A program made the translations under genes and the position numbers. Below, piece by piece: positions 5,122 to 24,461 of a stretch of 31,668 nt of DNA. The first letter of the stretch is position 1; each line of letters starts with the position of its first letter. Origin of the DNA: a virus. The notes under the pieces were generated by a model, which saw only the letters and a list, made by a program, of their open reading frames with translations, was not told where the DNA came from and did no database searches. The DNA is taken from positions 1-31,668 of the IMG/VR virus record IMGVR_UViG_3300032291_002669; one strand, given 5' to 3'.

Positions 5122-5243
5122 CTTATATATTTAAAGTATACACTATCCCTAACATGGTCAAAATAGACTTATGGTAACAAAACGGACATTGTCTATTATA
5201 ACAATTTGATAACTTTAAATATCATGTCCAGATTGTCCTATTA

Positions 5244-5252
5244 TGGTATACT
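5244..5252 (+). promoter_or_regulatory. Extended -10 promoter (TGG-TATACT) for a possible small RNA
   Basis: ATTATGGTATACTT matches the extended -10 pattern of the late promoters, but no gene starts just after it. Instead a strong hairpin with a T-rich tail lies 12-60 nt downstream. Confidence 0.5.
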
Positions 5253-5258
5253 TTTATT

Positions 5259-5315
5259 ACTGGCTAATACCTTGGTTTGTCCTATACCCACCAATCAAGG
5301 TATTAGTCTTTATTT
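5259..5315 (+). ncRNA. Putative ~55-nt hairpin RNA / promoter-proximal terminator
   Basis: CTAATACCTTG (5264-5274) and CAAGGTATTAG (5296-5306) form a perfect 11-bp stem with a 21-nt loop that can be extended by a few pairs (GTT/AAT), followed by TCTTTATTT. Starting from the TGG-TATACT at 5244-5252, a transcript of only about 55 nt would be made. It may be a small regulatory RNA, or an attenuator/terminator insulating the next promoter at 5320-5325. Confidence 0.45.
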
Positions 5316-5319
5316 ATGG

Positions 5320-5325
5320 TATAAT
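5320..5325 (+). promoter_or_regulatory. Leaderless late promoter (TGG-TATAAT, 6 nt, ATG)
   Basis: TATGG-TATAAT-CTGAGT-ATG. There is no Shine-Dalgarno, and transcription should start at about the A of ATG 5332. Confidence 0.68.
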
Positions 5326-5331
5326 CTGAGT

Positions 5332-5727
5332 ATGCCTATTCACTCTCAACTTGCATTTGGTGCTGACCCAGTCAGTATGCAATGGAGCGTTGTTAGAGGA
5401 GATACTGGAACTCTCCGTGTAGAGTTTTATGAGGATAATGAAATAGACTATTACGACACTACTGGATGGACTTTTAGAGCAACTGCTTATGATCAATCTG
5501 GTAACGTTTTGGATGCCCTCGAATGTGAGCCTGGTGAAGGATTTGTCGATATTACAGCCTACCCATCGGTTACAAAAAATTGGGGATTAAAATACTCATC
5601 AGTTGTGGCTCAATTACCATTTGATCTACAAGTAACAATTCCAGAACTAATTGAAGACACTGTTTGGACTCCTGTAATTGGAACCATACAAGTATTAGGC
5701 GACATTACACCAGGGGGTACACTATAA
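5332..5727 (+). CDS. LtfC/BppU-like tail protein (copy 1)
   Basis: A 131-aa protein starting MPIHSQLAFGADPVSMQWSV. The stretch QWSVVRGDTGTLRVEFYEDN followed by DTTGWTFRATAYDQSG has the 'W..vrGDt..f.v......g....l.Gw.f....' layout of N-terminal beta-sandwich domains of phage baseplate/fibre adaptor proteins (LtfC-like, BppU-N-like). Related sequences are at 14926-15309 and, more distantly, 7578-8030. The frame is open upstream to 5206, but that segment contains the hairpin and the promoter, so ATG 5332 is preferred. Its TAA overlaps the next ATG by one base; it probably links the following collagen-like fibre to the virion. Confidence 0.62.
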   Translation: MPIHSQLAFGADPVSMQWSVVRGDTGTLRVEFYEDNEIDYYDTTGWTFRATAYDQSGNVLDALECEPGEGFVDITAYPSVTKNWGLKYSSVVAQLPFDLQVTIPELIEDTVWTPVIGTIQVLGDITPGGTL

Positions 5728-6818
5728 TGGCAGTTATTAAGATTGTTCCGATGCCAGGCGCAGTTGGAGACAAGGGAGACGAAGGCGCTCCAGGAGCACA
5801 AGGTCCACAAGGACCAGCAGGTCAAAACGGTTTGCCAGGAACGCCTGCTCTATGGTCATATCAAGGTGCATATAACTCTGCTGCTGCTTATGCAGTTGGC
5901 GATGTCGTAGTTTATCAAGGACAACTTTATTATACAAAGTCAGTAACAACTGCTGGAACACTTCCAACCAATACAGTTAAGTTTGATTTGATTGCAGCAA
6001 AGGGTGCAGATGGGCAACCAGGAACCAATGGTTCTGATGGTGCACCAGGAGCAGGGTTTGGAATTTTCTATTTAGGAAACTATAATCCAAATAGCGGATA
6101 CGTTCCAGACATTGCAGTAGTTAGAGGATCAGACGGACAACTCTATCTTGCTAAAGCAAGTGGACAACTTGGAGATCCAGTTGGAAACACTGCACAGTGG
6201 GAAGTTTGGATTCCTAAAGGTGCAGATGGTACAAACGGGACAAATGGTACAAATGGTGCAGATGCACTTTGGAACTTTACTGGTCCATGGGTAAATGGAA
6301 TTGACTATGGTCCTGGATCTTTAGTTGAGTTTGAAGGATCGACTTACTATCATCCCAATGGACAATTTTCATCATACGCCCCACCAACAAATGGTTGGCT
6401 TTTAGTTGCAGAAAAAGGTGAACCAGGAACTGATGTGTTTGCTGAAGATGGAACTTTGTATGGACCTACTAATTTTGGTGCCCTTAAAGTTTTGGGACTT
6501 ATAAATTCAGGCGATAATGATCTTGGTCTATATGCTAACGATGCAAATATAATTCTGCAAACTGCAGATGGAAAAGTAGACATTGTTGCACCTGAAGTTA
6601 ACATTGTCTCAAATGTAGTGCCATCATCATTCAATATTAATACTTATCTTGGCGCTTCAGTCAATAGCAATAGGACTTCAACTTATGCAGTCGAAGACAA
6701 GGTTGTTGCAACCCTTGGAGATTTACCAACGGGAGCAACAGGAACATTCCAAACATCAGATAGCAAGATAGTTACAGTTACTAATGGAATCATTACATCT
6801 ATAGAGTCACTGACTTAA
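5727..6818 (+). CDS. Collagen-like fibre with chitin/carbohydrate-binding-like repeats
   Basis: A 363-aa protein. After MAVIKIVPMP come about ten Gly-X-Y triplets (residues 11-40), then a repeat unit ALWSYQGAYNSAAAYAVGDV followed by VYQGQLYYTK. Shorter Gly-X-Y runs near residues 92-110 and 167-180 separate two more such units (IFYLGNYNPNSGYVPDIAVV; ALWNFTGPWVNGIDYGPGSL followed by VEFEGSTYYH). The units resemble CBM5/12 chitin-binding modules (W..g.aY..GDvV.y.g..Y). The C-terminus is a beta-rich fibre domain. Prolines in the Y position (GAPG, GLPG, GQPG) are potential substrates for the hydroxylase at 11433. It starts at ATG 5727, overlapping the previous stop. Confidence 0.8.
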   Translation: MAVIKIVPMPGAVGDKGDEGAPGAQGPQGPAGQNGLPGTPALWSYQGAYNSAAAYAVGDVVVYQGQLYYTKSVTTAGTLPTNTVKFDLIAAKGADGQPGTNGSDGAPGAGFGIFYLGNYNPNSGYVPDIAVVRGSDGQLYLAKASGQLGDPVGNTAQWEVWIPKGADGTNGTNGTNGADALWNFTGPWVNGIDYGPGSLVEFEGSTYYHPNGQFSSYAPPTNGWLLVAEKGEPGTDVFAEDGTLYGPTNFGALKVLGLINSGDNDLGLYANDANIILQTADGKVDIVAPEVNIVSNVVPSSFNINTYLGASVNSNRTSTYAVEDKVVATLGDLPTGATGTFQTSDSKIVTVTNGIITSIESLT

Positions 6819-6838: not shown

Positions 6839-7570
6839 ATGGCTGTTTCTAAATCTATGGATTTTCCAGGTGCAAAAAAATCTTCATATGCTGCACAAGT
6901 AGAACAAAGTCAAGCATCTCCTACTGTAGATAACGCTCTTTCATTTCTTCCAGTCCCTGGCCCAGTTGGACCACAAGGACCTGCAGGTAGAGATGGTAGA
7001 AATGGAGAACAAGGTTTACAAGGAGCACAGGGAGAGCCTGGCCCCAAAGGAGATCGTGGTCCAGCAGGAGTAAATGGACAAAGTTCATTATCATCTTCAG
7101 GACAGCAAGCAGGATGGGGCTCATATACAAACACTATTGACAAACCAACAAAACTTGGTATCTCTCAAGGAGACGATGGTTGGGTAACTCTTATATTAGA
7201 CACAAAAGATAAAAGTCAAAATGAAAAATACCTTCCAGAAGGCTGTACCAGTCTTTGGAATAGCCACCAGAGAGCCCTAAACTTCCACGGTATAAAAGAA
7301 GGCTCCCAAGTATCGGTAACATACAACTTTGAACTAACAACATATAGTTCTAATACAGAGGTTTGGCTAAGAACCTATTTTGCAAGCAATGATCAGGAGT
7401 TTGTCCAGTTCGTAGGCTCCCTTAAGTATCAAAACACATACAACCTTTCAGTTACCCAAAAGATCTTTATTGAAAATACTGCTATGTGGGGCAATGGTGC
7501 TGTTCCTCAACTTAGAACAGACTTTGATGCTTCCGTAATATTCAATTCTGTCTACGTCAGCGTGGTATAA
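6839..7570 (+). CDS. Collagen-like fibre with globular C-terminal domain
   Basis: A 243-aa protein. An N-terminal segment of about 37 residues is followed by about 13 Gly-X-Y triplets (PGPVGPQGPAGRDGRNGEQG, then LQGAQGEPGPKGDRGPAG), then a beta-rich C-terminal domain of about 150 residues (GWVTLILDTKD...VYVSVV) that may be a trimeric TNF/C1q-like knob. I infer a trimeric collagen-like stalk with a receptor-binding head. Its final codons GTG GTA TAA lie inside the next promoter (TGG-TATAAT). Translation should be leaderless. Confidence 0.78.
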   Translation: MAVSKSMDFPGAKKSSYAAQVEQSQASPTVDNALSFLPVPGPVGPQGPAGRDGRNGEQGLQGAQGEPGPKGDRGPAGVNGQSSLSSSGQQAGWGSYTNTIDKPTKLGISQGDDGWVTLILDTKDKSQNEKYLPEGCTSLWNSHQRALNFHGIKEGSQVSVTYNFELTTYSSNTEVWLRTYFASNDQEFVQFVGSLKYQNTYNLSVTQKIFIENTAMWGNGAVPQLRTDFDASVIFNSVYVSVV

Positions 7571-7577: not shown

Positions 7578-8030
7578 ATGGCATTTCCAGCAACCTATGA
7601 CTTTAACTACTATAAGGGTGACACCTTTGAGTTTCGTATCTACCCGAAAAAAAATGATGGAACGGTTTTTGATCTGTCTGGATATCTTGATAGCAATGTT
7701 CTTTATAACACAAATACTATAGACGGTGTTACTGGTTCTGCACCATACGAGCAAGCAAGGTTTTCAATTGCCCCAGCAAGAGGAAGTGCTGCTTCAGCAA
7801 TAATTACAGGTTTTGCAAGAATTCATGGTGATGGAACACATGTTAGATGTGCAATTAGACCAACAGAGGGACGACAGTTGAATGCTGGAACTGAATATTT
7901 TTACGATGTTGAAGTAAGAGTTCCTTCTGGAGGACCAGACAACCCATTTTATGAAAAAGTAATTACTCTCATGACTGGTAGAATAACAGTCACCGAGCAA
8001 GTCACACTAGACCCAGTTCCTGGAGATTAA
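7578..8030 (+). CDS. LtfC/BppU-like tail protein (divergent copy)
   Basis: A 150-aa protein beginning MAFPATYDFNYYKGDTFEFR. The pattern 'yyKGDtfefriypk..dGt.fdLsGy' is that of BppU-N/LtfC-type beta-sandwich adaptor domains, here with a longer insertion in the middle (ARFSIAPARGSAASAIITGF). It probably forms a baseplate or fibre-attachment element for the next two gene products. Two bases separate it from the next gene. Confidence 0.58.
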   Translation: MAFPATYDFNYYKGDTFEFRIYPKKNDGTVFDLSGYLDSNVLYNTNTIDGVTGSAPYEQARFSIAPARGSAASAIITGFARIHGDGTHVRCAIRPTEGRQLNAGTEYFYDVEVRVPSGGPDNPFYEKVITLMTGRITVTEQVTLDPVPGD

Positions 8031-8654: not shown

Positions 8655-10937
8655 GTGGCAGCAGAGAATATTGACGATACGCCTAACGGCACAGGTCTTT
8701 TCAATGTCAAAATCCCAGGACTTGCTGATCCAGCCGATGTTCAGGCAGCCTTAAGACTATACCACTATGGCTCATATACTTACGATGGAGCAAATACAAA
8801 TACCTCAAATATTTTGCCCAACTCAATTGCAAAACACCTTCAAAACCTTGTAGACGCAGATGCTTTAGAGGTAGTAAATAGAACTGCTGCAGATGCAGCA
8901 GAGGTAGTAGCCAGAAATACTGCAATCGCTGTAGAGACAACAAATAGAAATACTGCAATTACAACACATAATTCAGCAACTACAAATGTCCACGGAATAT
9001 TAAACACAGCAAACTTAGCAACACAGTCATATGTGCTTGACGCTATAAATGGTGCTACTGGTGGATACCCTGGTCTTGCAGGAGAAGGCATTGATTGGAA
9101 TTCTGTTGATTTAAGGTTTGATCTTGAGCCAAAACTATTAAACAATAACACTGTAGTAACTAAAACATCTGGATTTACCTTAGATCCACTGGATGTAAAT
9201 AAAACAATTTTGCTTTCTACATCTTCTCCAATGACTTTGACTGTACCGCTAAATTCTGCAGTTGAAATACCTGTTGGATATAAATATACGGTAGTTGAAA
9301 TAGGATCAGGGAAAACAACTTTCGTTGCAGCATCTGGAGTTACAATAAATAGTAAGAATTCACAACTATTTATCGATAGTCAGTATGGCAGTGCAACTTT
9401 ATTAAAAGTTGGAACAAACTCTTGGATTGCGTATGGAGATATATACGAAGGTTCAAGTTCTCAAACATTCTTAAATGTAACATATAACTGTGGTACTGGA
9501 GCAACAAACTGTCCTCCAAGTACAACATACACCACATCTTATACAATACCTACAACTATTCCTCAGTCCATACTTAGCAGTTATACAACTTTCCTTGGAT
9601 ATGATCTTTCATCAGATAAGCCAGGATGCGTACAATCAGCAAGTACTCCTGACATAACTGCACAACAAGTTGCCAATGGATATACAATCAATGCCAGCGA
9701 TTCTTGTGGTGGAAACATAAGTCTGACTCCAGTATTTCAATATGATCCAACTCCACCTGCAGTAACACCTGCAGTAACACCAGCAGTAACACCAGCAGTA
9801 ACACCTGCAGTTACTCCTGCTGTAACACCAGTTGCCGTCACACCTGCTGTAACACCTGCTGTAACACCAGCAGTTACTCCAGCAGTTACACCAGCCGTAA
9901 CACCTGCTGTAGCAGTAACACCTGCTGTAACACCAGCGGTAATTGAAGGATGGTATGCTTCTGGATGTTGTAATGGAGTTGCAATTTACGGAAGTAGTGT
10001 TGCATCATCTGCAACCGCTTTAGATAATTTAGATTTCCAATGTCAAACATCTCCATCTCAAAGATCTGTTCAGTTTGGAACATCTTATCCAACTGTTAAT
10101 TGTTCAGTAACACCAGCAGTTACACCTGCTGTAACACCTGCCGTCACACCTGCTGTAACACCTGCTGTAACACCAGCAACAACTACAATGTATTATGGAT
10201 GTTGCTCTAATGGGCTTGGAGTACAAGGAAGTTACTCAGATTCTAATACAGCAGTACTTGCATTTGGAGAATTGTGCTCTGGAGATGAACCGTTTAATAC
10301 ACTTCAAGGAGGAGTATTTACAACGCCATCAAGTTGTAACGCACCAGCAGTAACACCTGCAGTTACTCCTGCTGTAACACCAGCAGTAACACCAGCAGTA
10401 ACACCAGCAGTAACACCAGCAGTTACACCTGCTGTAACACCTGCCGTCACACCTGCCGTCACACCTGCCGTCACACCTGCTGTAACTTGGTATTGTTCAA
10501 CAACTGAAAATGGTGCAGGACAATATCGTGGAACATCAAGTTCAGACCAGTCATCACAAATATGTAATGACTATAAGACAGTATGTTCAACATCTGGATA
10601 CCCTGCATACCCTTCAGTACCAGCCTGTGCCGTCACACCAGCAGTTACACCTGCAGTTACTCCAGCCGTAACACCAGTTGCCGTCACACCTGCCGTAACA
10701 CCAGTTGCCGTCACACCTGCTGTAACACCAGTTGCCGTCACACCTGCAGTAACACCTGCTGTAACACCAGCAGTAACACCAGCAGTTACACCTGCTGTAA
10801 CACCTGCCGTCACACCTGCTGCAAATGATTGTGATGCATGTCCAGGACAGTATTCAGGGACAAGCGCAGGGTGTGCACAATGTACTAATTGTGTAAATCA
10901 GGGCGGATACTGGACTGGATCATCATGTTACACTTAA
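8655..10937 (+). CDS. Giant adhesin/fibre with (TPAV)n arrays and Cys-rich knobs
   Basis: A 760-aa protein from GTG 8655 (AGAGGTG ribosome-binding site at 8640-8646). The N-terminal 160 residues are fibre-like, including TTNVHGILNTANLATQSYVL and GIDWNSVDLRFDLEP; both have close counterparts in the fibre at 18235. A beta-rich domain follows (about 165-275), then a Cys-containing domain (about 280-365). The rest alternates four Thr/Pro-rich (TPAV)n arrays with Cys-rich modules of about 50 residues (starting WYASGCC, MYYGCC, WYCSTT) and a C-terminal Cys-rich cap (CDACPGQY...CAQCTNC). It looks like disulfide-stabilised knobs on extended mucin- or extensin-like spacers. It is likely a host-surface adhesin and a good candidate substrate for the neighbouring hydroxylase and glycosyltransferase. 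Confidence 0.72.
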   Translation: MAAENIDDTPNGTGLFNVKIPGLADPADVQAALRLYHYGSYTYDGANTNTSNILPNSIAKHLQNLVDADALEVVNRTAADAAEVVARNTAIAVETTNRNTAITTHNSATTNVHGILNTANLATQSYVLDAINGATGGYPGLAGEGIDWNSVDLRFDLEPKLLNNNTVVTKTSGFTLDPLDVNKTILLSTSSPMTLTVPLNSAVEIPVGYKYTVVEIGSGKTTFVAASGVTINSKNSQLFIDSQYGSATLLKVGTNSWIAYGDIYEGSSSQTFLNVTYNCGTGATNCPPSTTYTTSYTIPTTIPQSILSSYTTFLGYDLSSDKPGCVQSASTPDITAQQVANGYTINASDSCGGNISLTPVFQYDPTPPAVTPAVTPAVTPAVTPAVTPAVTPVAVTPAVTPAVTPAVTPAVTPAVTPAVAVTPAVTPAVIEGWYASGCCNGVAIYGSSVASSATALDNLDFQCQTSPSQRSVQFGTSYPTVNCSVTPAVTPAVTPAVTPAVTPAVTPATTTMYYGCCSNGLGVQGSYSDSNTAVLAFGELCSGDEPFNTLQGGVFTTPSSCNAPAVTPAVTPAVTPAVTPAVTPAVTPAVTPAVTPAVTPAVTPAVTPAVTWYCSTTENGAGQYRGTSSSDQSSQICNDYKTVCSTSGYPAYPSVPACAVTPAVTPAVTPAVTPVAVTPAVTPVAVTPAVTPVAVTPAVTPAVTPAVTPAVTPAVTPAVTPAANDCDACPGQYSGTSAGCAQCTNCVNQGGYWTGSSCYT
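9756..9942 (+). repeat. (TPAV)n coding repeat array 1
   Basis: In-frame 12-nt units (variants of GTAACACCTGCA) encode ValThrProAla about 15 times, with occasional 6-nt slips giving VAVT. Synonymous codons vary from unit to unit. Confidence 0.9.
10105..10175 (+). repeat. (TPAV)n coding repeat array 2
   Basis: The shortest array, about six 12-nt units, lies between two Cys-rich modules. Confidence 0.88.
10343..10488 (+). repeat. (TPAV)n coding repeat array 3
   Basis: About twelve uninterrupted 12-nt units between the second and third Cys-rich modules. Confidence 0.9.
10627..10821 (+). repeat. (TPAV)n coding repeat array 4
   Basis: About fifteen units; three carry VAVT (GTTGCCGTCACA) variants. 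It is followed by the C-terminal Cys-rich cap. Confidence 0.9.
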
Positions 10938-10947
10938 TATGTAAATA

Positions 10948-10956
10948 TGGTATACT
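10948..10956 (+). promoter_or_regulatory. Extended -10 promoter (TGG-TATACT)
   Basis: ATATGG-TATACT, 24 nt before ATG 10981. An AAAAGGAG ribosome-binding site lies between, so this transcript has a leader. It probably drives the small-protein and modification-enzyme operon 10981-13653. Confidence 0.6.
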
Positions 10957-10980
10957 TTAAATAAATGAAAAGGAGAAAAA

Positions 10981-11187
10981 ATGACAATTAAAAAATTTGC
11001 GGGAATTGTAGATGGTGATATATTTACAATAATGACAATAGATACAGAGTATCAGGGTTCAGATGGAGAAGGCGGAGAAAGAATTGTTGCTGGACTATCT
11101 TCTAATCCTATTTTTGTAGAAGTTCCATCCAATCTTGATGTGAATATCAATTGGTCTTGGAATGGCACTGAGTTCGTAGAGGGATAA
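10981..11187 (+). CDS. 68-aa hypothetical protein, fibre-assembly-like
   Basis: A 68-aa protein starting MTIKKFAGIVDGDIFTIMTI. It ends VNINWSWNGTEFVEG, resembling the 'V..GW.y.G..F' ending of small proteins next to tail-fibre genes in cyanophages and other tailed phages. A strong AAAAGGAG Shine-Dalgarno is 8 nt before the ATG. It directly follows the giant adhesin and leads the modification-enzyme operon. A role in fibre assembly or binding is possible but unproven. Confidence 0.6.
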   Translation: MTIKKFAGIVDGDIFTIMTIDTEYQGSDGEGGERIVAGLSSNPIFVEVPSNLDVNINWSWNGTEFVEG

Positions 11188-11193
11188 CCCCCA

Positions 11194-11433
11194 ATGCCAG
11201 AAGAACTAAACCCTTGGCAAAAATATAAGGAAAACTTAGGACAAACCAGGCCTTGGGATCTTGTAAATCCTTCAACTGAATGGGCAAATTCTGATGTAGC
11301 AAAAGAAAGATACTCTATATGCAAAGCATGTCCAGAACTAATTAAAATGACAACTCAATGCAAAAAATGTGGATGTTTTATGTTTGCAAAAACAAAATTA
11401 GAAAAAGCAAGTTGCCCGTTAGGAAAATGGTAA
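11194..11433 (+). CDS. Cys-rich zinc-ribbon-like protein (CPLGKW type)
   Basis: A 79-aa protein. The C-terminal half has ICKACPELIKMTTQCKKCGC followed by CPLGKW: CxxC, CxxCxC and a last Cys, a likely double zinc-binding knuckle. Small viral proteins with 'C..CPe....C..CGC......CPlGKW' endings are common in aquatic phages, often near oxygenase or glycosyltransferase genes, but I know of no defined role. Its TAA overlaps the start of the oxygenase gene, so the two are translationally coupled. Confidence 0.66.
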   Translation: MPEELNPWQKYKENLGQTRPWDLVNPSTEWANSDVAKERYSICKACPELIKMTTQCKKCGCFMFAKTKLEKASCPLGKW

Positions 11434-12029
11434 TGAATAAAAAACAGTTAGCACCAGGAATATTTGTATATTCTGATGTAATTAAGGACTATGCAACTCT
11501 TGTTTCAGATATTGAAGAAGGCATTATTAGTGCAGGTAGAGAATGGATACCGTCATCAATCAAAAGCGATGATGTAGTAAAAATAGATACAGACTATAGG
11601 GATACTTTTACTTCAGTTATTCCATACTCTGAATCAATTATTGAAGATTTTACAAATTTGAATCAGGCATTTAATGCAACCCTATCAAACATATTTCTAA
11701 CTAATTTTGGAAATGCAGAAGCAAATTATAAAGCAGAGCACCAACTTGAAACTACATGGCATGACGACTATAGCATTTTAAAATATGGTGTTGGTCAGAA
11801 GTTTGTAAATCATATTGATGATCACAGAGACATACATAGAAGAATGTCTCTGGTTTATTATATTAATGATAATTATAGTGGTGGAGAAATTGTTTTCCCA
11901 AGATTTGATATAACATATAAACCAAAAGCAAATGAACTTCTTATTTTCCCATCAACCTATGTATATAATCATTCTGTTTTACCAGTAATAGAAGGAACTA
12001 GATATGCGGTAGTTAGTTGGTTAAAATGA
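11433..12029 (+). CDS. 2OG-Fe(II) oxygenase, prolyl 4-hydroxylase type
   Basis: A 198-aa protein starting MNKKQLAPGIFVYSDVIKDY. The double-stranded beta-helix core is clear: FVNHIDDH gives the HxD pair His127/Asp129, YSGGEIVFP (148-156) is the typical GGE..FP strand, YNHSV supplies the distal His180, and GTRYAVVSW gives Arg190 for 2-oxoglutarate. This family (P4Hc) hydroxylates prolyl or other residues using Fe(II), O2 and 2-oxoglutarate; the substrate here is inferred. The frame continues upstream to 11358, but ATG 11433 (TAATG overlap with the zinc-ribbon gene, AGGAAA upstream) is preferred. The neighbouring proline-rich fibres make fibre proline hydroxylation plausible. It overlaps the GT61 gene by 4 nt. 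Confidence 0.88.
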   Translation: MNKKQLAPGIFVYSDVIKDYATLVSDIEEGIISAGREWIPSSIKSDDVVKIDTDYRDTFTSVIPYSESIIEDFTNLNQAFNATLSNIFLTNFGNAEANYKAEHQLETTWHDDYSILKYGVGQKFVNHIDDHRDIHRRMSLVYYINDNYSGGEIVFPRFDITYKPKANELLIFPSTYVYNHSVLPVIEGTRYAVVSWLK

Positions 12030-13057
12030 TTTTGTCATGTGATGGTATTACCCAAGAAAAATTTTTTGATTATGTGTTTGACAGTGTATCTATTAGTAAC
12101 TTTTCTATAAAAAATGATGATGGGCCAGTAATGCAAATACCTGGAGAAACTTATTTATTTCAAACACACTCTGCATTTGGTCATTCAATGATGGACATAT
12201 ATGGACAATTTAAAATTTTACAGTTAAAATATAAAAATATAAAGCCATTTTTTTATGAAACCCAAAATGGATATTTCAATCAAAATAAAGTAACAATAGA
12301 CCAGATGTACTTTCTTGGATATGAAAATTCAGAAGTTTTTAATATTTCAGTTGGCAATTATTCTTTTGAAAAGGTAATAATGTTTTTTGATATGAACCTT
12401 ACATTCCCTCAAGAGTTTTACTCAGACAATGGGGCAACAAGATCACTGCAATATTTTCCATTTTGCACTTGTTTTGCAGGAGGAGGAAATGGGGAACTTC
12501 CCTGTGGAGAAAGCGAACATTTCAAGTATAACTATTTGGCAATAGATATTTTAAAAGAAAATTTTAAAGAATTTTATAATGACAAAAAAGAAGGAAACAT
12601 TTTTGTTTCAAGAGAAAGATTTAACAACTTTCGTAAAAGCCAGATTGAATTTTATTCAAACAAAGAAGTTCTGTCTGAGAAAGACAAAGGAGACTTCTTT
12701 TTTGCTAAATGGAGATACTGTGAAAAAGAAGACTCTATACAAAATAAATTTAAAGATAATGGATGGACAATTATCTATCCAGAAGATTACGGTTTAATAG
12801 AACAGATAAAAATCTTCAGTTCTGCAAAAAATATTGCAGGAACCTCTGGCACTTGGATATTTCATTCTTTTTGGGGGAACGAAGAAACAAACATGTTTGA
12901 AATTTCAGCAATTCCAAACCACAGATATCATTACAAAGAGTTTGCAGATTATGCGGGGATAAATCATTCTTATATTAATGTTGTTGATCTATCTGAAGAA
13001 GAGTCACTAAGTTTAATTCAAAAAAATATAGATAAAATAAGCAAGAGAGAGGTTTAA
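12026..13057 (+). CDS. GT61-type (DUF563) glycosyltransferase
   Basis: A 343-aa protein. Hallmarks of family 61 are present: HSAFGHSMMDIYGQF (about 48-62) near the N-terminus, NIFVSRERFNNFRK (191-204), and PEDYGLIEQIKIFSSAKNIA then GTSGTWIFHSFW (252-283), matching the 'pE.ls..eQi.lf..A..ivG.hGs.l.n..f' block. GT61 enzymes transfer sugars such as GlcNAc or xylose in O-linked protein and polysaccharide synthesis. ATG 12026 overlaps the oxygenase stop as ATGA; a TTG at 12017 is a less likely start. Tight coupling to the hydroxylase suggests both act on one substrate, possibly the (TPAV)n adhesin or a collagen-like fibre. Host-surface glycan modification is the main alternative. Confidence 0.82.
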   Translation: MILSCDGITQEKFFDYVFDSVSISNFSIKNDDGPVMQIPGETYLFQTHSAFGHSMMDIYGQFKILQLKYKNIKPFFYETQNGYFNQNKVTIDQMYFLGYENSEVFNISVGNYSFEKVIMFFDMNLTFPQEFYSDNGATRSLQYFPFCTCFAGGGNGELPCGESEHFKYNYLAIDILKENFKEFYNDKKEGNIFVSRERFNNFRKSQIEFYSNKEVLSEKDKGDFFFAKWRYCEKEDSIQNKFKDNGWTIIYPEDYGLIEQIKIFSSAKNIAGTSGTWIFHSFWGNEETNMFEISAIPNHRYHYKEFADYAGINHSYINVVDLSEEESLSLIQKNIDKISKREV

Positions 13058-13065
13058 AATATAAA

Positions 13066-13653
13066 ATGTCAGATACACCAGTAATAGATATGGAACTTGT
13101 TAGGCAAGCAATCGCTGAAAACAGAATTCACATATTTAAAGATGTATTTACGGACCTACCATCATTGGAAACAATTATGTCAATGGTTTCTAAATATGTT
13201 GATGAAGACTTAACTGCCTTCCCAGATAGATCATATCTTTTAAACGATTTTGTTGAGGGTGAGTCTTCTGACATGAGATTAAAATGTAGATTTTGGTCAA
13301 GAATGGCTTTTCAACTGTACGATCCAAAAGATCTTTATATGTCAATAATTCCAGAACTTGCCCCAGTAACTGAATGGGGGCTTTCTCAATACTCAGAAGA
13401 CATCTATACTGGAAACTTTTGTTTGGTATCTTTAATGAAAAACAGGGGAGTTGTAGGTAGCAAACATAGAGACTATGTTGATCAATTCCAGTGGGTAGTT
13501 AAGGGCGAAATGATTTGGCGTACTGGAGAGAACTTAGAGAATGAATACCATCTCGTAGAGGGAGACTTTGTATTTATTCCTAAAAACCTTGCTCATGAAG
13601 TTGAGACAATAAAGGCTCCAAGAGCAGCAATTAATTTAATATTAAGAAACTAA
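13066..13653 (+). CDS. JmjC/cupin-type 2OG oxygenase-like protein
   Basis: A 195-aa protein starting MSDTPVIDMELVRQAIAENR. KHRDYVDQFQWVVKGEMIWR (133-152) matches the JmjC/cupin-8 core 'HxDxxd.f.wqvkGrk.W', with His134/Asp136 as iron ligands. VEGDFVFIPKNLAHEVETI (164-182) gives the pGD..yiP..waHeV strand and third ligand His177. Enzymes of this fold hydroxylate protein side chains or demethylate lysines. It is the third enzyme in a row with the P4H-like and GT61 genes; 8 nt separate it from the GT gene, with GAGAGAGG upstream. The substrate is not known; a second hydroxylation of a fibre or of a host protein is plausible. A terminator hairpin follows. Confidence 0.72.
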   Translation: MSDTPVIDMELVRQAIAENRIHIFKDVFTDLPSLETIMSMVSKYVDEDLTAFPDRSYLLNDFVEGESSDMRLKCRFWSRMAFQLYDPKDLYMSIIPELAPVTEWGLSQYSEDIYTGNFCLVSLMKNRGVVGSKHRDYVDQFQWVVKGEMIWRTGENLENEYHLVEGDFVFIPKNLAHEVETIKAPRAAINLILRN

Positions 13654-13698: not shown

Positions 13699-14262
13699 TT
13701 ACTTAGGAAATTTGCTCATCCACATTCTGGTCTTAGGGGTAATGCCCTTCCAAGAAGACCAATCATCTCCACCCTTTGTCATGTAGTATACAATTTCTGC
13801 ATTCTTGACGGGATTAAATAGTTCAGCATTTGATTCAAGATCAAACTTAGTTCTACGATCAGGACCAAGTGTATCAATCATATTAATTTGGAACATACCA
13901 TAAGACGAGTCTCCAGTCTTGTGATTGCCATTAAAGGCCAATGGTCGTCCATTAGATTCCTTCTTTGCTACTGCCCAGGCTACTACAAGGTCATTACCCT
14001 TAAAGCCAACAAGAGAAAGCAGTTCTTTTAGTTCTAGATCAGTTAGAGAAACCTTATTCTCAAAACTCTCTAACTTTTTTGCCTTAGAAACCAAAAAAAC
14101 CTCTTTCGAGGTGGTTTCCGATGTCTGAGCCTGTTCCAGGCTAAGATTGTTCTTAGTATCAAGACTTGAAATAGCATTAGCAGAGTTTGACAAAACCGTT
14201 ACTAGTGCCACGATACTGAGTGTGCTAATGATCTCTTTGTTTCTTTCGATAAATTTAATCAT
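13699..14262 (-). CDS. Secreted lysozyme/transglycosylase-like endolysin
   Basis: A protein of 187 aa. Residues 1-30 form a signal peptide (basic MIKFIERNK, hydrophobic IISTLSIVALVTVL, SNSANA cleavage site), so export does not need a holin. The C-terminal part is lysozyme-fold: VAWAVAKKESNGRP (probable catalytic Glu102), TGDSSYGMFQINM (116-128), LGPDRR and GGDDWSSW. This is the pattern of goose-type lysozyme/SLT transglycosylase domains that cut peptidoglycan glycan strands. The linker 45-90 is charged and helical. ATG 14262 has a perfect AAGGAGG ribosome-binding site; the frame is open upstream to 14331 without support. It is the only leftward gene in the fibre module and has its own promoter. 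It may serve lysis, cell-wall entry or host wall remodelling. Confidence 0.8.
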   Translation of the reverse strand: MIKFIERNKEIISTLSIVALVTVLSNSANAISSLDTKNNLSLEQAQTSETTSKEVFLVSKAKKLESFENKVSLTDLELKELLSLVGFKGNDLVVAWAVAKKESNGRPLAFNGNHKTGDSSYGMFQINMIDTLGPDRRTKFDLESNAELFNPVKNAEIVYYMTKGGDDWSSWKGITPKTRMWMSKFPK

Positions 14263-14280
14263 AGTTTCCTCCTTAGAAAA

Positions 14281-14308
14281 CAATAACACCCTGGTAGGTG
14301 TTACTACC
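14281..14308 (-). promoter_or_regulatory. Leader with two mutually exclusive hairpins
   Basis: On the minus strand GGTAG-TAACAC-CTACC and AACACC-TACCAG-GGTGTT share bases, so only one can form; the second is followed by ATTGTTTTC. The arrangement resembles an attenuator upstream of the lysozyme-like gene, but may be chance. Confidence 0.3.
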
Positions 14309-14309
14309 A

Positions 14310-14338
14310 AGTATATCATGAGATTTTTCAAAAAGCAA
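14310..14338 (-). promoter_or_regulatory. Leftward promoter of the lysozyme-like gene
   Basis: On the minus strand TTGCTT (14338-14333), a 17-nt spacer, and TATACT (14315-14310) preceded by TGA (extended -10). A leader of about 40 nt with a strong ribosome-binding site follows, unlike the leaderless late genes. Confidence 0.7.
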
Positions 14339-14925: not shown

Positions 14926-15309
14926 ATGGCTACCTTTAGAAATCAACCCACAGACTCTTATGCACTAGGTGCTGCTCCACCAGAAATTCGTTGGACAGTT
15001 GTTCGTGGTGATTCAGCAGCCTTTCGTGTTTATGTAACCAACGATGCAAGAGAGCCACTTCTTCTTGAAGACTGGCAAGTTAAAATGGACATTCGTCGTA
15101 ATGCAAGCCTTGTTCTTTCTTTGTCTCCTCAACCAATTGAGTTTCAAGATACAGAGGGAAGTTTTACTGTAAATCTTACATCCTCACAATCTGAACTTCT
15201 TCAGACAGGAGACATCTTCGATATTCAACTCACAGAACTTCTATCAGAAGGCAGAGTTTGGACGGTAGCCAAAGGGTCAATGGTTATTATTGAAGACGTA
15301 ACACAGTAA
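14926..15309 (+). CDS. LtfC/BppU-like tail protein (copy 2)
   Basis: A 127-aa protein. IRWTVVRGDSAAFRVYVTND followed by LEDWQVKMDIRRNAS matches copy 1 at 5332 (QWSVVRGDTGTLRVEFYEDN) in its N-terminal beta-sandwich. It ends EGRVWTVAKGSMVIIEDVTQ, also paralleling the end of copy 1 (TVWTPVIGTIQVLGDIT). It probably forms an attachment domain for the following fibres, and is coupled by TAATG overlap to the next gene. Confidence 0.64.
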   Translation: MATFRNQPTDSYALGAAPPEIRWTVVRGDSAAFRVYVTNDAREPLLLEDWQVKMDIRRNASLVLSLSPQPIEFQDTEGSFTVNLTSSQSELLQTGDIFDIQLTELLSEGRVWTVAKGSMVIIEDVTQ

Positions 15310-22427: not shown

Positions 22428-24461
22428 ATGTCAGATTTTTTTAGTTTTAAACTTCCAGAAGACTTCGTAGAAAAGTACAAGAGCCAAGAAAGCCCATTTG
22501 GGTTTAAGGATGCAGCAGAAAATTCACTTGGAGAAATTACTTTTATTCGTACATACTCCCGCATGAAGGAAGATGGAACTAAAGAAAGATGGCACGAAGT
22601 TTGTCGTCGTGTAATCGAGGGTATGTATTCAGTGCAGAAGAATCATGCTAAAGAAAACCGTTTACCATGGAATGACTACAAGGCTCAGAAGTCTGCACAA
22701 GAAGCATTCCAAAGAATGTTTGAATTAAAGTGGACACCACCAGGACGAGGTATGTGGGCATTCGGAACTCCTATGACTATGGAGAAAAAGAACTCAGCAG
22801 CATTACAAAACTGTGCAATGGTTTCTACAAAGGATCTTGACAAGAACGATCCAGGAGCATTGTTTGCTTGGGTAATGGATGCATTGATGCTTGGTATTGG
22901 TGTAGGGTTTGATACAGTGGGACAGGATAAGCATTTTGCAATCTATGCCCCAACAGAACCTGAACAGGTGTTCGAAATCCCAGACACTCGTGAAGGTTGG
23001 GTAGAGTCAGTCAGACTTCTTATCAACTCATACCTTAGAGCAAACCAGAATATTCAGAAGTTTAACTATGATTTGATTAGACCTCTTGGAGCCCCCATAA
23101 AGGGCTTTGGAGGCGTTGCATCAGGGCCTGCACCTCTTATCAAGTTACACGACCAGATAGACCGTGTAATCGGCTCCAGAGGCGGAGAAACACTAGATTC
23201 TCGTGCTATTGTAGACCTTATAAACCTCATTGGTACCTGTGTGGTATCAGGTAATGTTCGTAGATCAGCAACTCTTGCTTTGGGTAATGCAGGGGATGAA
23301 ACATTTATGAATCTAAAGAACTCAGAGATCTTCCCAGAGCGTAACTCATTTGATCCAGAGAATCCAGGTTGGGCTTGGATGTCTAATAATTCTATTTCAG
23401 CAGAAGTAGGAACAAAGTATGAAGACTATGTAGATTTAATTACAGAAAATGGAGAACCAGGTTTTATCTGGCTTGATGTTGCTCGTAATTATGGCAGACT
23501 AAAGGATGCGCCAGATGGAAAAGACTATCGTGTGATGGGCTTTAATCCTTGTGCGGAGCAGCCATTAGAGTCATACGAATTATGTACACTTGTAGAAGTG
23601 CACTTGAATCGTCATGAATCTAAGGAAGACTTCCTGCGTACCCTGAAGTTTGCATACCTTTACGGAAAGACTGTAACACTTGTTCCAACACACTGGCCAC
23701 AAACAAACGGTATTATGCAACGCAACCGTCGTATTGGTACATCACTTACTGGTATTGCATCATTTGCAGATCAAAAGGGTTTACCAGTTGTTCGTGAGTG
23801 GATGGACGAAGGATACAATAAGATCCGTCACTATGACCACCAGTATTCAGAATGGCTTTGTGTTCGTGAATCAATTCGTGTAACAACAGTTAAGCCATCA
23901 GGATCTGTTTCAATTCTTTCTGGTGCAACTCCTGGAGTTCACTGGGGACCTGGAGGAAACTTCTTCCTTCGTGCAGTTAGATTTGGAACGACAGATCCAA
24001 TGATTCATTTGTTTAAAGCAGCAGGGTACACAATTGAAGATGACGTAGTATCAGCAAACACATCAGTAGTTTACTTCCCAATCAAATCAGGTCATCCAAG
24101 ATCTGAAAAAGATGTAACCCTATTTGAAAAGATTGCACTTGCTGCAACTGCTCAAAAGTATTGGTCTGACAATGGCGTTTCTGTAACACTTTCATTTGAC
24201 AAGGAAACAGAGTCAAAGCATATTGTTCCAGCACTCAATATGTACGAAGGACAACTAAAGGCTGTCTCATTCCTTCCAATGGGAAATACAGTTTATCCAC
24301 AGCAGCCATATACTCAGATTACTGAAGAGCAGTATGAGTCTTATATTGGTAAGTTGAAGCACATTGATTTTGCTGCAATTTACGACGGTGTCGATAATCT
24401 TGAGGCTCAAGGCGAAGCATACTGTACTACAGACTACTGTGAAATTAAAATAAACAAGTAG
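22428..24461 (+). CDS. nrdJ: Ribonucleoside-triphosphate reductase, adenosylcobalamin-dependent (class II)
   Basis: A 677-aa protein resembling monomeric class II RTPR (Lactobacillus leichmannii enzyme 739 aa). The active site is intact: Cys129 in ALQNCAMVS, Cys375 and Glu377 in FNPCAEQPLESYELC, Cys386 at the end of that block (spacing 2 and 11, as in the family), and the C-terminal redox pair YCTTDYCEIK (Cys666/Cys671). It reduces NTPs to dNTPs using coenzyme B12, so it works with or without oxygen but needs cobalamin from the host. It sits between structural genes with its own terminator upstream and its own promoter, a unit that could be expressed on a different schedule. Thioredoxin or another reductant is not seen nearby. 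Confidence 0.93.
   Translation: MSDFFSFKLPEDFVEKYKSQESPFGFKDAAENSLGEITFIRTYSRMKEDGTKERWHEVCRRVIEGMYSVQKNHAKENRLPWNDYKAQKSAQEAFQRMFELKWTPPGRGMWAFGTPMTMEKKNSAALQNCAMVSTKDLDKNDPGALFAWVMDALMLGIGVGFDTVGQDKHFAIYAPTEPEQVFEIPDTREGWVESVRLLINSYLRANQNIQKFNYDLIRPLGAPIKGFGGVASGPAPLIKLHDQIDRVIGSRGGETLDSRAIVDLINLIGTCVVSGNVRRSATLALGNAGDETFMNLKNSEIFPERNSFDPENPGWAWMSNNSISAEVGTKYEDYVDLITENGEPGFIWLDVARNYGRLKDAPDGKDYRVMGFNPCAEQPLESYELCTLVEVHLNRHESKEDFLRTLKFAYLYGKTVTLVPTHWPQTNGIMQRNRRIGTSLTGIASFADQKGLPVVREWMDEGYNKIRHYDHQYSEWLCVRESIRVTTVKPSGSVSILSGATPGVHWGPGGNFFLRAVRFGTTDPMIHLFKAAGYTIEDDVVSANTSVVYFPIKSGHPRSEKDVTLFEKIALAATAQKYWSDNGVSVTLSFDKETESKHIVPALNMYEGQLKAVSFLPMGNTVYPQQPYTQITEEQYESYIGKLKHIDFAAIYDGVDNLEAQGEAYCTTDYCEIKINK

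Follow-up and report, generated by a model that had tools for sequence, protein, structure and literature searches.

The 31,668-base window analysed here, which is the complete IMG/VR record IMGVR_UViG_3300032291_002669, encodes a 760-aa fibre protein with four low-complexity VTPA arrays, and downstream of it a P4H-type Fe(II)/2-oxoglutarate (2OG) oxygenase, a GT61-family glycosyltransferase and a putative JmjC-fold oxygenase. Sequence comparison with relatives makes it quite likely that these genes form one of a set of dedicated, interchangeable enzyme cassettes whose products would modify the repeat arrays of the adjoining fibre. The JmjC gene covaries perfectly with VTP arrays, and arrays have been rewritten between conserved Cys-rich modules. 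An earlier note on this DNA had proposed that the phage modifies its own fibre stalks; for the array fibre this idea gained support, as all 66 JmjC cassettes lie beside a VTP fibre, while the collagen-like fibres included in the proposal are probably not the target.

Relatives were drawn from IMG/VR via each enzyme, via the unrelated anchor gene p15549 and via a TPAV DNA pattern, giving 146 contigs in which the cassette was covered, 121 of them with enough array sequence for scoring. The JmjC gene was present in 66/66 contigs with VTP-dominated arrays and in 0/55 with PTP, VAP, PAP, TAP or similar arrays (Fisher 8.5e-36), all cassettes without it lying beside non-VTP arrays. After clustering at 90% nucleotide identity, 67 clusters were left, 40 with JmjC and VTP and 27 without, none of them mixed. 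The anchor-gene set revealed the same picture (JmjC in 10/10 with VTP and 0/26 with other arrays), as did the scored contigs retrieved by the TPAV DNA pattern, 46 of 46 carrying the gene. On trees of flanking genes, all supported independent pairs agreed: the cement tree gave 12/12 (p=0.0005), the p8033 and p7578 trees 10/10 (p=0.002) and the lysozyme tree 5/5. P4H proved a looser partner of TPAV than the JmjC gene, being found in 59 of the 66 VTP loci, and GT61 was found in 26. A strict dependence of P4H on TPAV was rejected; the gene is present in all Pro-array classes and absent from 7 scored VTP loci. These distributions are best read as suggesting that P4H is general for Pro-containing arrays and the JmjC enzyme specific to VTP.

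Similar combinations were uncovered in other lineages. One lineage with an unrelated fibre (L251/L320) displays the order VTP fibre, GT61 (E=3e-10), JmjC-like gene and 2OG oxygenase, and another (L229/L316) carries a VTP fibre, DUF6171, P4H and a JmjC-like protein less than 20% identical to that of the window. The same cassette beside surface-polysaccharide genes, in phages lacking such fibres, was sought and not found.

The fibre gene (8655..10937, + strand) encodes a conserved N-terminal part matching phage tail-fibre families (1e-14 to 1e-5), followed by Cys-rich modules that are split by the four VTPA arrays, the proposed substrate, at 9759..9950, 10107..10178, 10347..10487 and 10629..10823 (all +). 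Together, the arrays contain 46 VTP and 40 TPAV motifs. Since the 40 TPAV units are encoded by 12 synonymous DNA versions, the arrays are not one recent slippage tract, and it is the amino-acid repeat that is maintained rather than a DNA repeat. The fibre gene had no match among 50,697 phage records. Some fibres of relatives end in a Hint/intein-like domain (L310:2974-5733; contig 3300027760_000071, ...CVEENTLVDTMDG...VNGMLVHNK), which, with PF14890 at E=0.037 and below the cut-off, suggests self-processing of the fibre C-terminus.

On the same strand, the cassette comprises a 68-aa small protein found in a minority of relatives (10981..11187), a four-Cys DUF6171 protein found in nearly every cassette (11194..11433), P4H (11433..12029), GT61 (12026..13057) and the JmjC gene (13066..13653), and it is bounded by an SLT_3 lysozyme-like gene on the opposite strand (13699..14331, -), which lies outside the system and served as a flank control. 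The array protein and the three enzyme genes were confirmed as previously named. The enzymes do stand in the locus downstream of the fibre, but not directly after it, as had been stated, for the first two small genes intervene. Likewise, the overlaps reported between the genes hold for P4H, which is in frame from the ATG at 11433 and overlaps the DUF6171 gene (TAATG), and for GT61, which overlaps P4H (ATGA), but not for the JmjC gene, which starts 8 nt past the GT61 stop. In the distant relatives L310, L311, L313 and L217, DUF6171 is fused to GT60 (for instance L310:5752-6936 and L217:1480-2676), and the protein is a probable accessory factor of modification, possibly a substrate adaptor. A sulfotransferase-like gene (PF03567) was seen between the fibre and the DUF6171 gene of contig 3300032321_000284 (8193-8996; L118), and a similar-looking gene at L312:4627-5424.

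The P4H protein matched 2OG-FeII_Oxy_3 (PF13640) with E=7e-17 (62.6 bits against a cut-off of 27), and its sequence profile showed the P4H of B. anthracis as best match (1e-8). The HxD...H...R motif noticed earlier is intact (H127, D129, H180 and R190) and invariant in 26 relatives. Its AlphaFold model (pLDDT 94.5) displays a prolyl-hydroxylase fold; nearly all of the top 50 PDB fold matches are known prolyl hydroxylases, the best including Dictyostelium PHD, Pseudomonas P4H, Chlamydomonas P4H with (Ser-Pro)5 (3gze), PHD2 and PBCV-1 vCPH (5c5t). Among the 50,697 phage records only distant relatives of the cyanophage type were found. The GT61 assignment was borne out by Glyco_transf_61 (PF04577; E=7e-12, 46.2 against 27 bits), covering profile positions 69-136 of 137.

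The third enzyme is probably a JmjC-fold protein oxygenase, because its predicted structure (pLDDT 84.8) best matches JmjC protein hydroxylases, with YxbC, MINA53, NO66, YcfD, TYW5 and FIH as top Foldseek hits (E about 1e-6), and because H134, D136, H177 and R186 are invariant in 24 relatives, the most distant at 17% identity. The JmjC/cupin HxD...H pattern pointed out before is intact. R186, situated 9 residues past H177, is a candidate 2OG-binding residue, and 2OG would be the expected cosubstrate. By sequence profile other cupins are favoured, such as 3-hydroxyanthranilate dioxygenase (1e-5). One GTDB scan for bacterial sources of the gene yielded only two ordinary cupins, so that no cellular source was found for it, and neither it nor GT61 had a relative in the 50,697 phage records. 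For GT61, and also for GT60 and a second putative oxygenase of related cassettes, no solved relative was found by sequence.

Cassettes without the JmjC gene carry P4H and/or a second HxD protein, together with epimerase, GT11-like, NodZ-like or GT60 genes. The second HxD protein, a putative oxygenase, has a conserved HxD and a later His and matched no Pfam family. GT60 (PF11397, up to E=4e-52, for example in 3300031951_000060) is located after P4H in PTP/PAP loci. Fibres with poly-Thr arrays are paired with a radical SAM/SPASM enzyme and GT60, without hydroxylases. The former was observed at L154:5393-6397 and in about 30 relatives (L329-L362), tied to poly-Thr fibres, and may possibly be a Thr-modifying enzyme of phages. 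Contig 3300042561_000700 is a hybrid, combining P4H, radical SAM and GT60 with TPTP/APTP arrays. In the union set as scored, an oxygenase was present in 118/125 Pro arrays and none in 26/27 Thr arrays, L332, L340 and L346 having been entered as Pro while being mainly Thr (TTTTTPAP or TTTTSG), and L353 as Thr while not being a repeat array. The seven Pro exceptions without oxygenase are these three mainly Thr arrays and four contigs with the DUF6171-GT60 fusion. Up to six consecutive P4H-like open reading frames (ORFs) were seen in L352 and L353, in a relative of the radical-SAM loci.

These pairings bear on the idea that the targets of the enzymes are the host surface (capsule, teichoic acid) or the phage DNA, and that fibre and enzymes are correlated via the host strain. 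DNA and the cell wall are common proposals for the targets of phage glycosyltransferases, as suggested for Nanopelagicales phages (PMC10202952), and the epimerase and GT11-like genes of some cassettes would be in line with this. However, the enzyme class fits the repeat chemistry, with prolyl hydroxylases beside Pro arrays and none beside poly-Thr; both oxygenases resemble protein hydroxylases, and the genes adjoin one fibre and not DNA or polysaccharide modules. We therefore regard this explanation as improbable.

Passive linkage would mean that the fibre C-terminus and the cassette move as one recombination block, correlating arrays and enzymes without functional interaction. The parts do lie within about 5 kb in a region that is a recombination hot spot, and the P4H sequence partly tracks the array class (6 changes on the P4H tree). 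If they merely travelled together, the lysozyme gene and the fibre N-terminus would be expected to follow the cassette, but neither does: the state of JmjC needs 16 changes on the tree of the lysozyme, whose gene lies 48 nt away, and 10 on that of the fibre N-terminus, while its agreement with the arrays is never broken. Moreover, the Cys-rich modules are common to the array classes, 147 pairs of VTP and P-x-P modules showing at least 70% identity (best 96%), and yet the intervening arrays differ. The window and contig 3300003429_000047 can be aligned module by module, with TPAV arrays in the former and poly-Thr in the latter. Conserved modules between arrays of switched chemistry disfavour and mostly refute passive linkage, and L320 displays the same combination in another gene order in an unrelated phage, leaving this explanation with a slim chance.

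That P4H and GT61 act on the two upstream collagen-like fibres, with the VTP arrays as inert spacers, was rejected as very improbable: two Gly-X-Y fibres do lie within 6 kb (stretches 5757..5846 in fibre ORF 5664-6818 and 6959..7084 in fibre ORF 6839-7570, both +), and the P4H of chlorella virus PBCV-1 is referred to as a collagen-type P4H in the work cited in PMC9301287 (structure 5c5t), but P4H does not track Gly-X-Y proteins, a collagen-like gene being kept in 12/12 scored phages without this P4H, contig 3300003429_000047 carries the Gly-X-Y stretch of the window letter for letter yet has no P4H, GT61 or JmjC gene, and the cassette covaries with array type, not with collagen.

Several observations weigh against modification of the arrays by dedicated cassettes. 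The relatives are, without exception, metagenomic contigs of uncultured phages, some of them sampled from the same lakes. In seven scored VTP loci the cassette contains JmjC but lacks P4H, and GT61 is missing from the majority of the VTP loci. The JmjC protein falls short of the Pfam cut-offs, both for Cupin_2 (E=5e-6, 26.6 against 27.2 bits) and for JmjC_2 (E 0.03, 14.3 against 22). The four DUF6171-GT60 fusion contigs display TPTP-type arrays with no oxygenase in reach, and the tree-corrected test of oxygenase against Pro or Thr arrays comprises about 5 pairs and by itself does not reach significance. L319 carries a JmjC-like gene with no VTP pair in its 50.8-kb record, and in the flanks fetched for about 29 contigs retrieved by the TPAV pattern, mostly of unrelated viruses, none of the three enzymes had a relative. 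The rule is thus valid within this system and is no law for every TPAV protein.

For array modification by cassettes, which we prefer, we infer catalysis, target residues, order of steps, sugar and benefit as follows. The locus would be a modification island for one fibre, whose small Cys-rich modules are joined by low-complexity arrays, and the enzymes encoded just downstream would modify array residues ahead of virion assembly. P4H may hydroxylate the array proline and the JmjC enzyme one residue of the V-T-P motif, and GT61 might then add a sugar to the new hydroxyl, to hydroxyproline or to Thr, the DUF6171 protein probably bringing enzyme and fibre together. In the relatives, arrays and enzyme set switch in concert: the VTP class has JmjC, with P4H and GT61 optional, the PTP/VAP/PAP class P4H and/or the second putative oxygenase with GT60, GT11-like or epimerase genes, and the poly-Thr class radical SAM/SPASM and GT60 with no prolyl hydroxylase. 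Stiff, protease-resistant and glycan-coated stalks and a fast change of the fibre surface would be the likely benefit.

Regarding the phage itself, the portal of the window shares 48% identity with those of Streptomyces phages from a group of about 130 kb, and thus the phage is an actinophage; going by its metagenomic context and by the literature, freshwater Actinobacteria are the presumable host. A ribonucleotide reductase gene (22428-24461; phrog_367, E=4e-142) was seen amid the structural gene region, and the small structural family phrog_1084 has three members in this one locus (5206-5727, 7578-8030 and 14926-15309).

Our broader proposal is an interchangeable repeat-enzyme code, in which each array chemistry would have its own enzyme set and the repeats would be altered in situ to match it. 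The JmjC protein would be a new hydroxylase specific for one residue of VTP, and these would be the first bacteriophages with glycoprotein fibres that are hydroxylated or modified by radical SAM enzymes; we give this whole an even chance. Such a code has a fair chance of being new in kind. In open-licence full text, no report was found of hydroxylated phage fibres or of covariation of arrays and enzymes. The auxiliary metabolic genes most often met in aquatic phages include those for PHROG_61-type oxygenases, whose role has been described as cryptic (PMC9301287). Here, the genome by itself suffices to name a likely oxygenase substrate, and likewise a matching test peptide. If the proposal is true, phages are equipped with post-translational modification lines of their own for adhesins, whose swappable chemistry would alter the fibre surface and leave the folded modules unchanged, and their small enzymes, each with a defined repeat as substrate, could serve to produce hydroxylated or glycosylated polypeptides.

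Parts of this chemistry have precedents. In plant and algal hydroxyproline-rich glycoproteins, P4H acts on (SP)n/(TP)n repeats; those proteins share with our fibre the Thr/Ser-Pro low-complexity repeats and a matching P4H fold, whereas phage proteins, other transferase families, a JmjC enzyme and a swappable repeat chemistry are found here. The T. cruzi polypeptide GlcNAc-transferase acts on mucin Thr. It belongs to GT60, as does the Skp1 hydroxyproline GlcNAc-transferase (PMC6939170). In the Skp1 pathway of Dictyostelium and Toxoplasma, the P4H PhyA is followed by the GT60 enzyme Gnt1 (PMC6939170), just as a P4H-fold oxygenase is followed by GT60 in some phage relatives; in contrast, one proline of a cytosolic protein is concerned there and fibre repeat arrays here, and the window uses GT61 instead of GT60, plus a JmjC-fold oxygenase. 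PBCV-1 also has a viral P4H that is thought to hydroxylate viral proteins (Eriksson et al. 1999, as cited in PMC9301287; 5c5t), but this is a eukaryotic algal virus, which is not known to have such a cassette or a covariation with substrate repeats. In mycobacteriophages, transferases encoded by actinophages glycosylate virion proteins (Freeman et al. 2023, as cited in PMC12619734); the targets there are capsid and tail-tube subunit C-termini, and neither hydroxylases nor repeat arrays are known to be involved. The nearest description is that of the Nanopelagicales phages E7 and F5, likewise freshwater actinophages, in which a hypervariable island takes in collagen-like genes and a portion of the tail-fibre gene; modification of the fibre was not suggested in that work, which linked the glycosyltransferases to the protection of DNA or to the cell wall (PMC10202952).

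In its arrangement, the locus resembles those of the serine-rich repeat adhesins of Gram-positive bacteria, which neighbour variable glycosyltransferase clusters. In both, a low-complexity repeat adhesin is adjoined by modification genes that are dedicated to it and vary between strains, and here, too, the enzyme genes adjoin the repeat protein and covary with it, as in a dedicated locus for modifying adhesin repeats. Different from those loci, the adhesin is a phage fibre, oxygenases and radical SAM enzymes are encoded besides transferases, and the repeat itself switches with the enzymes.

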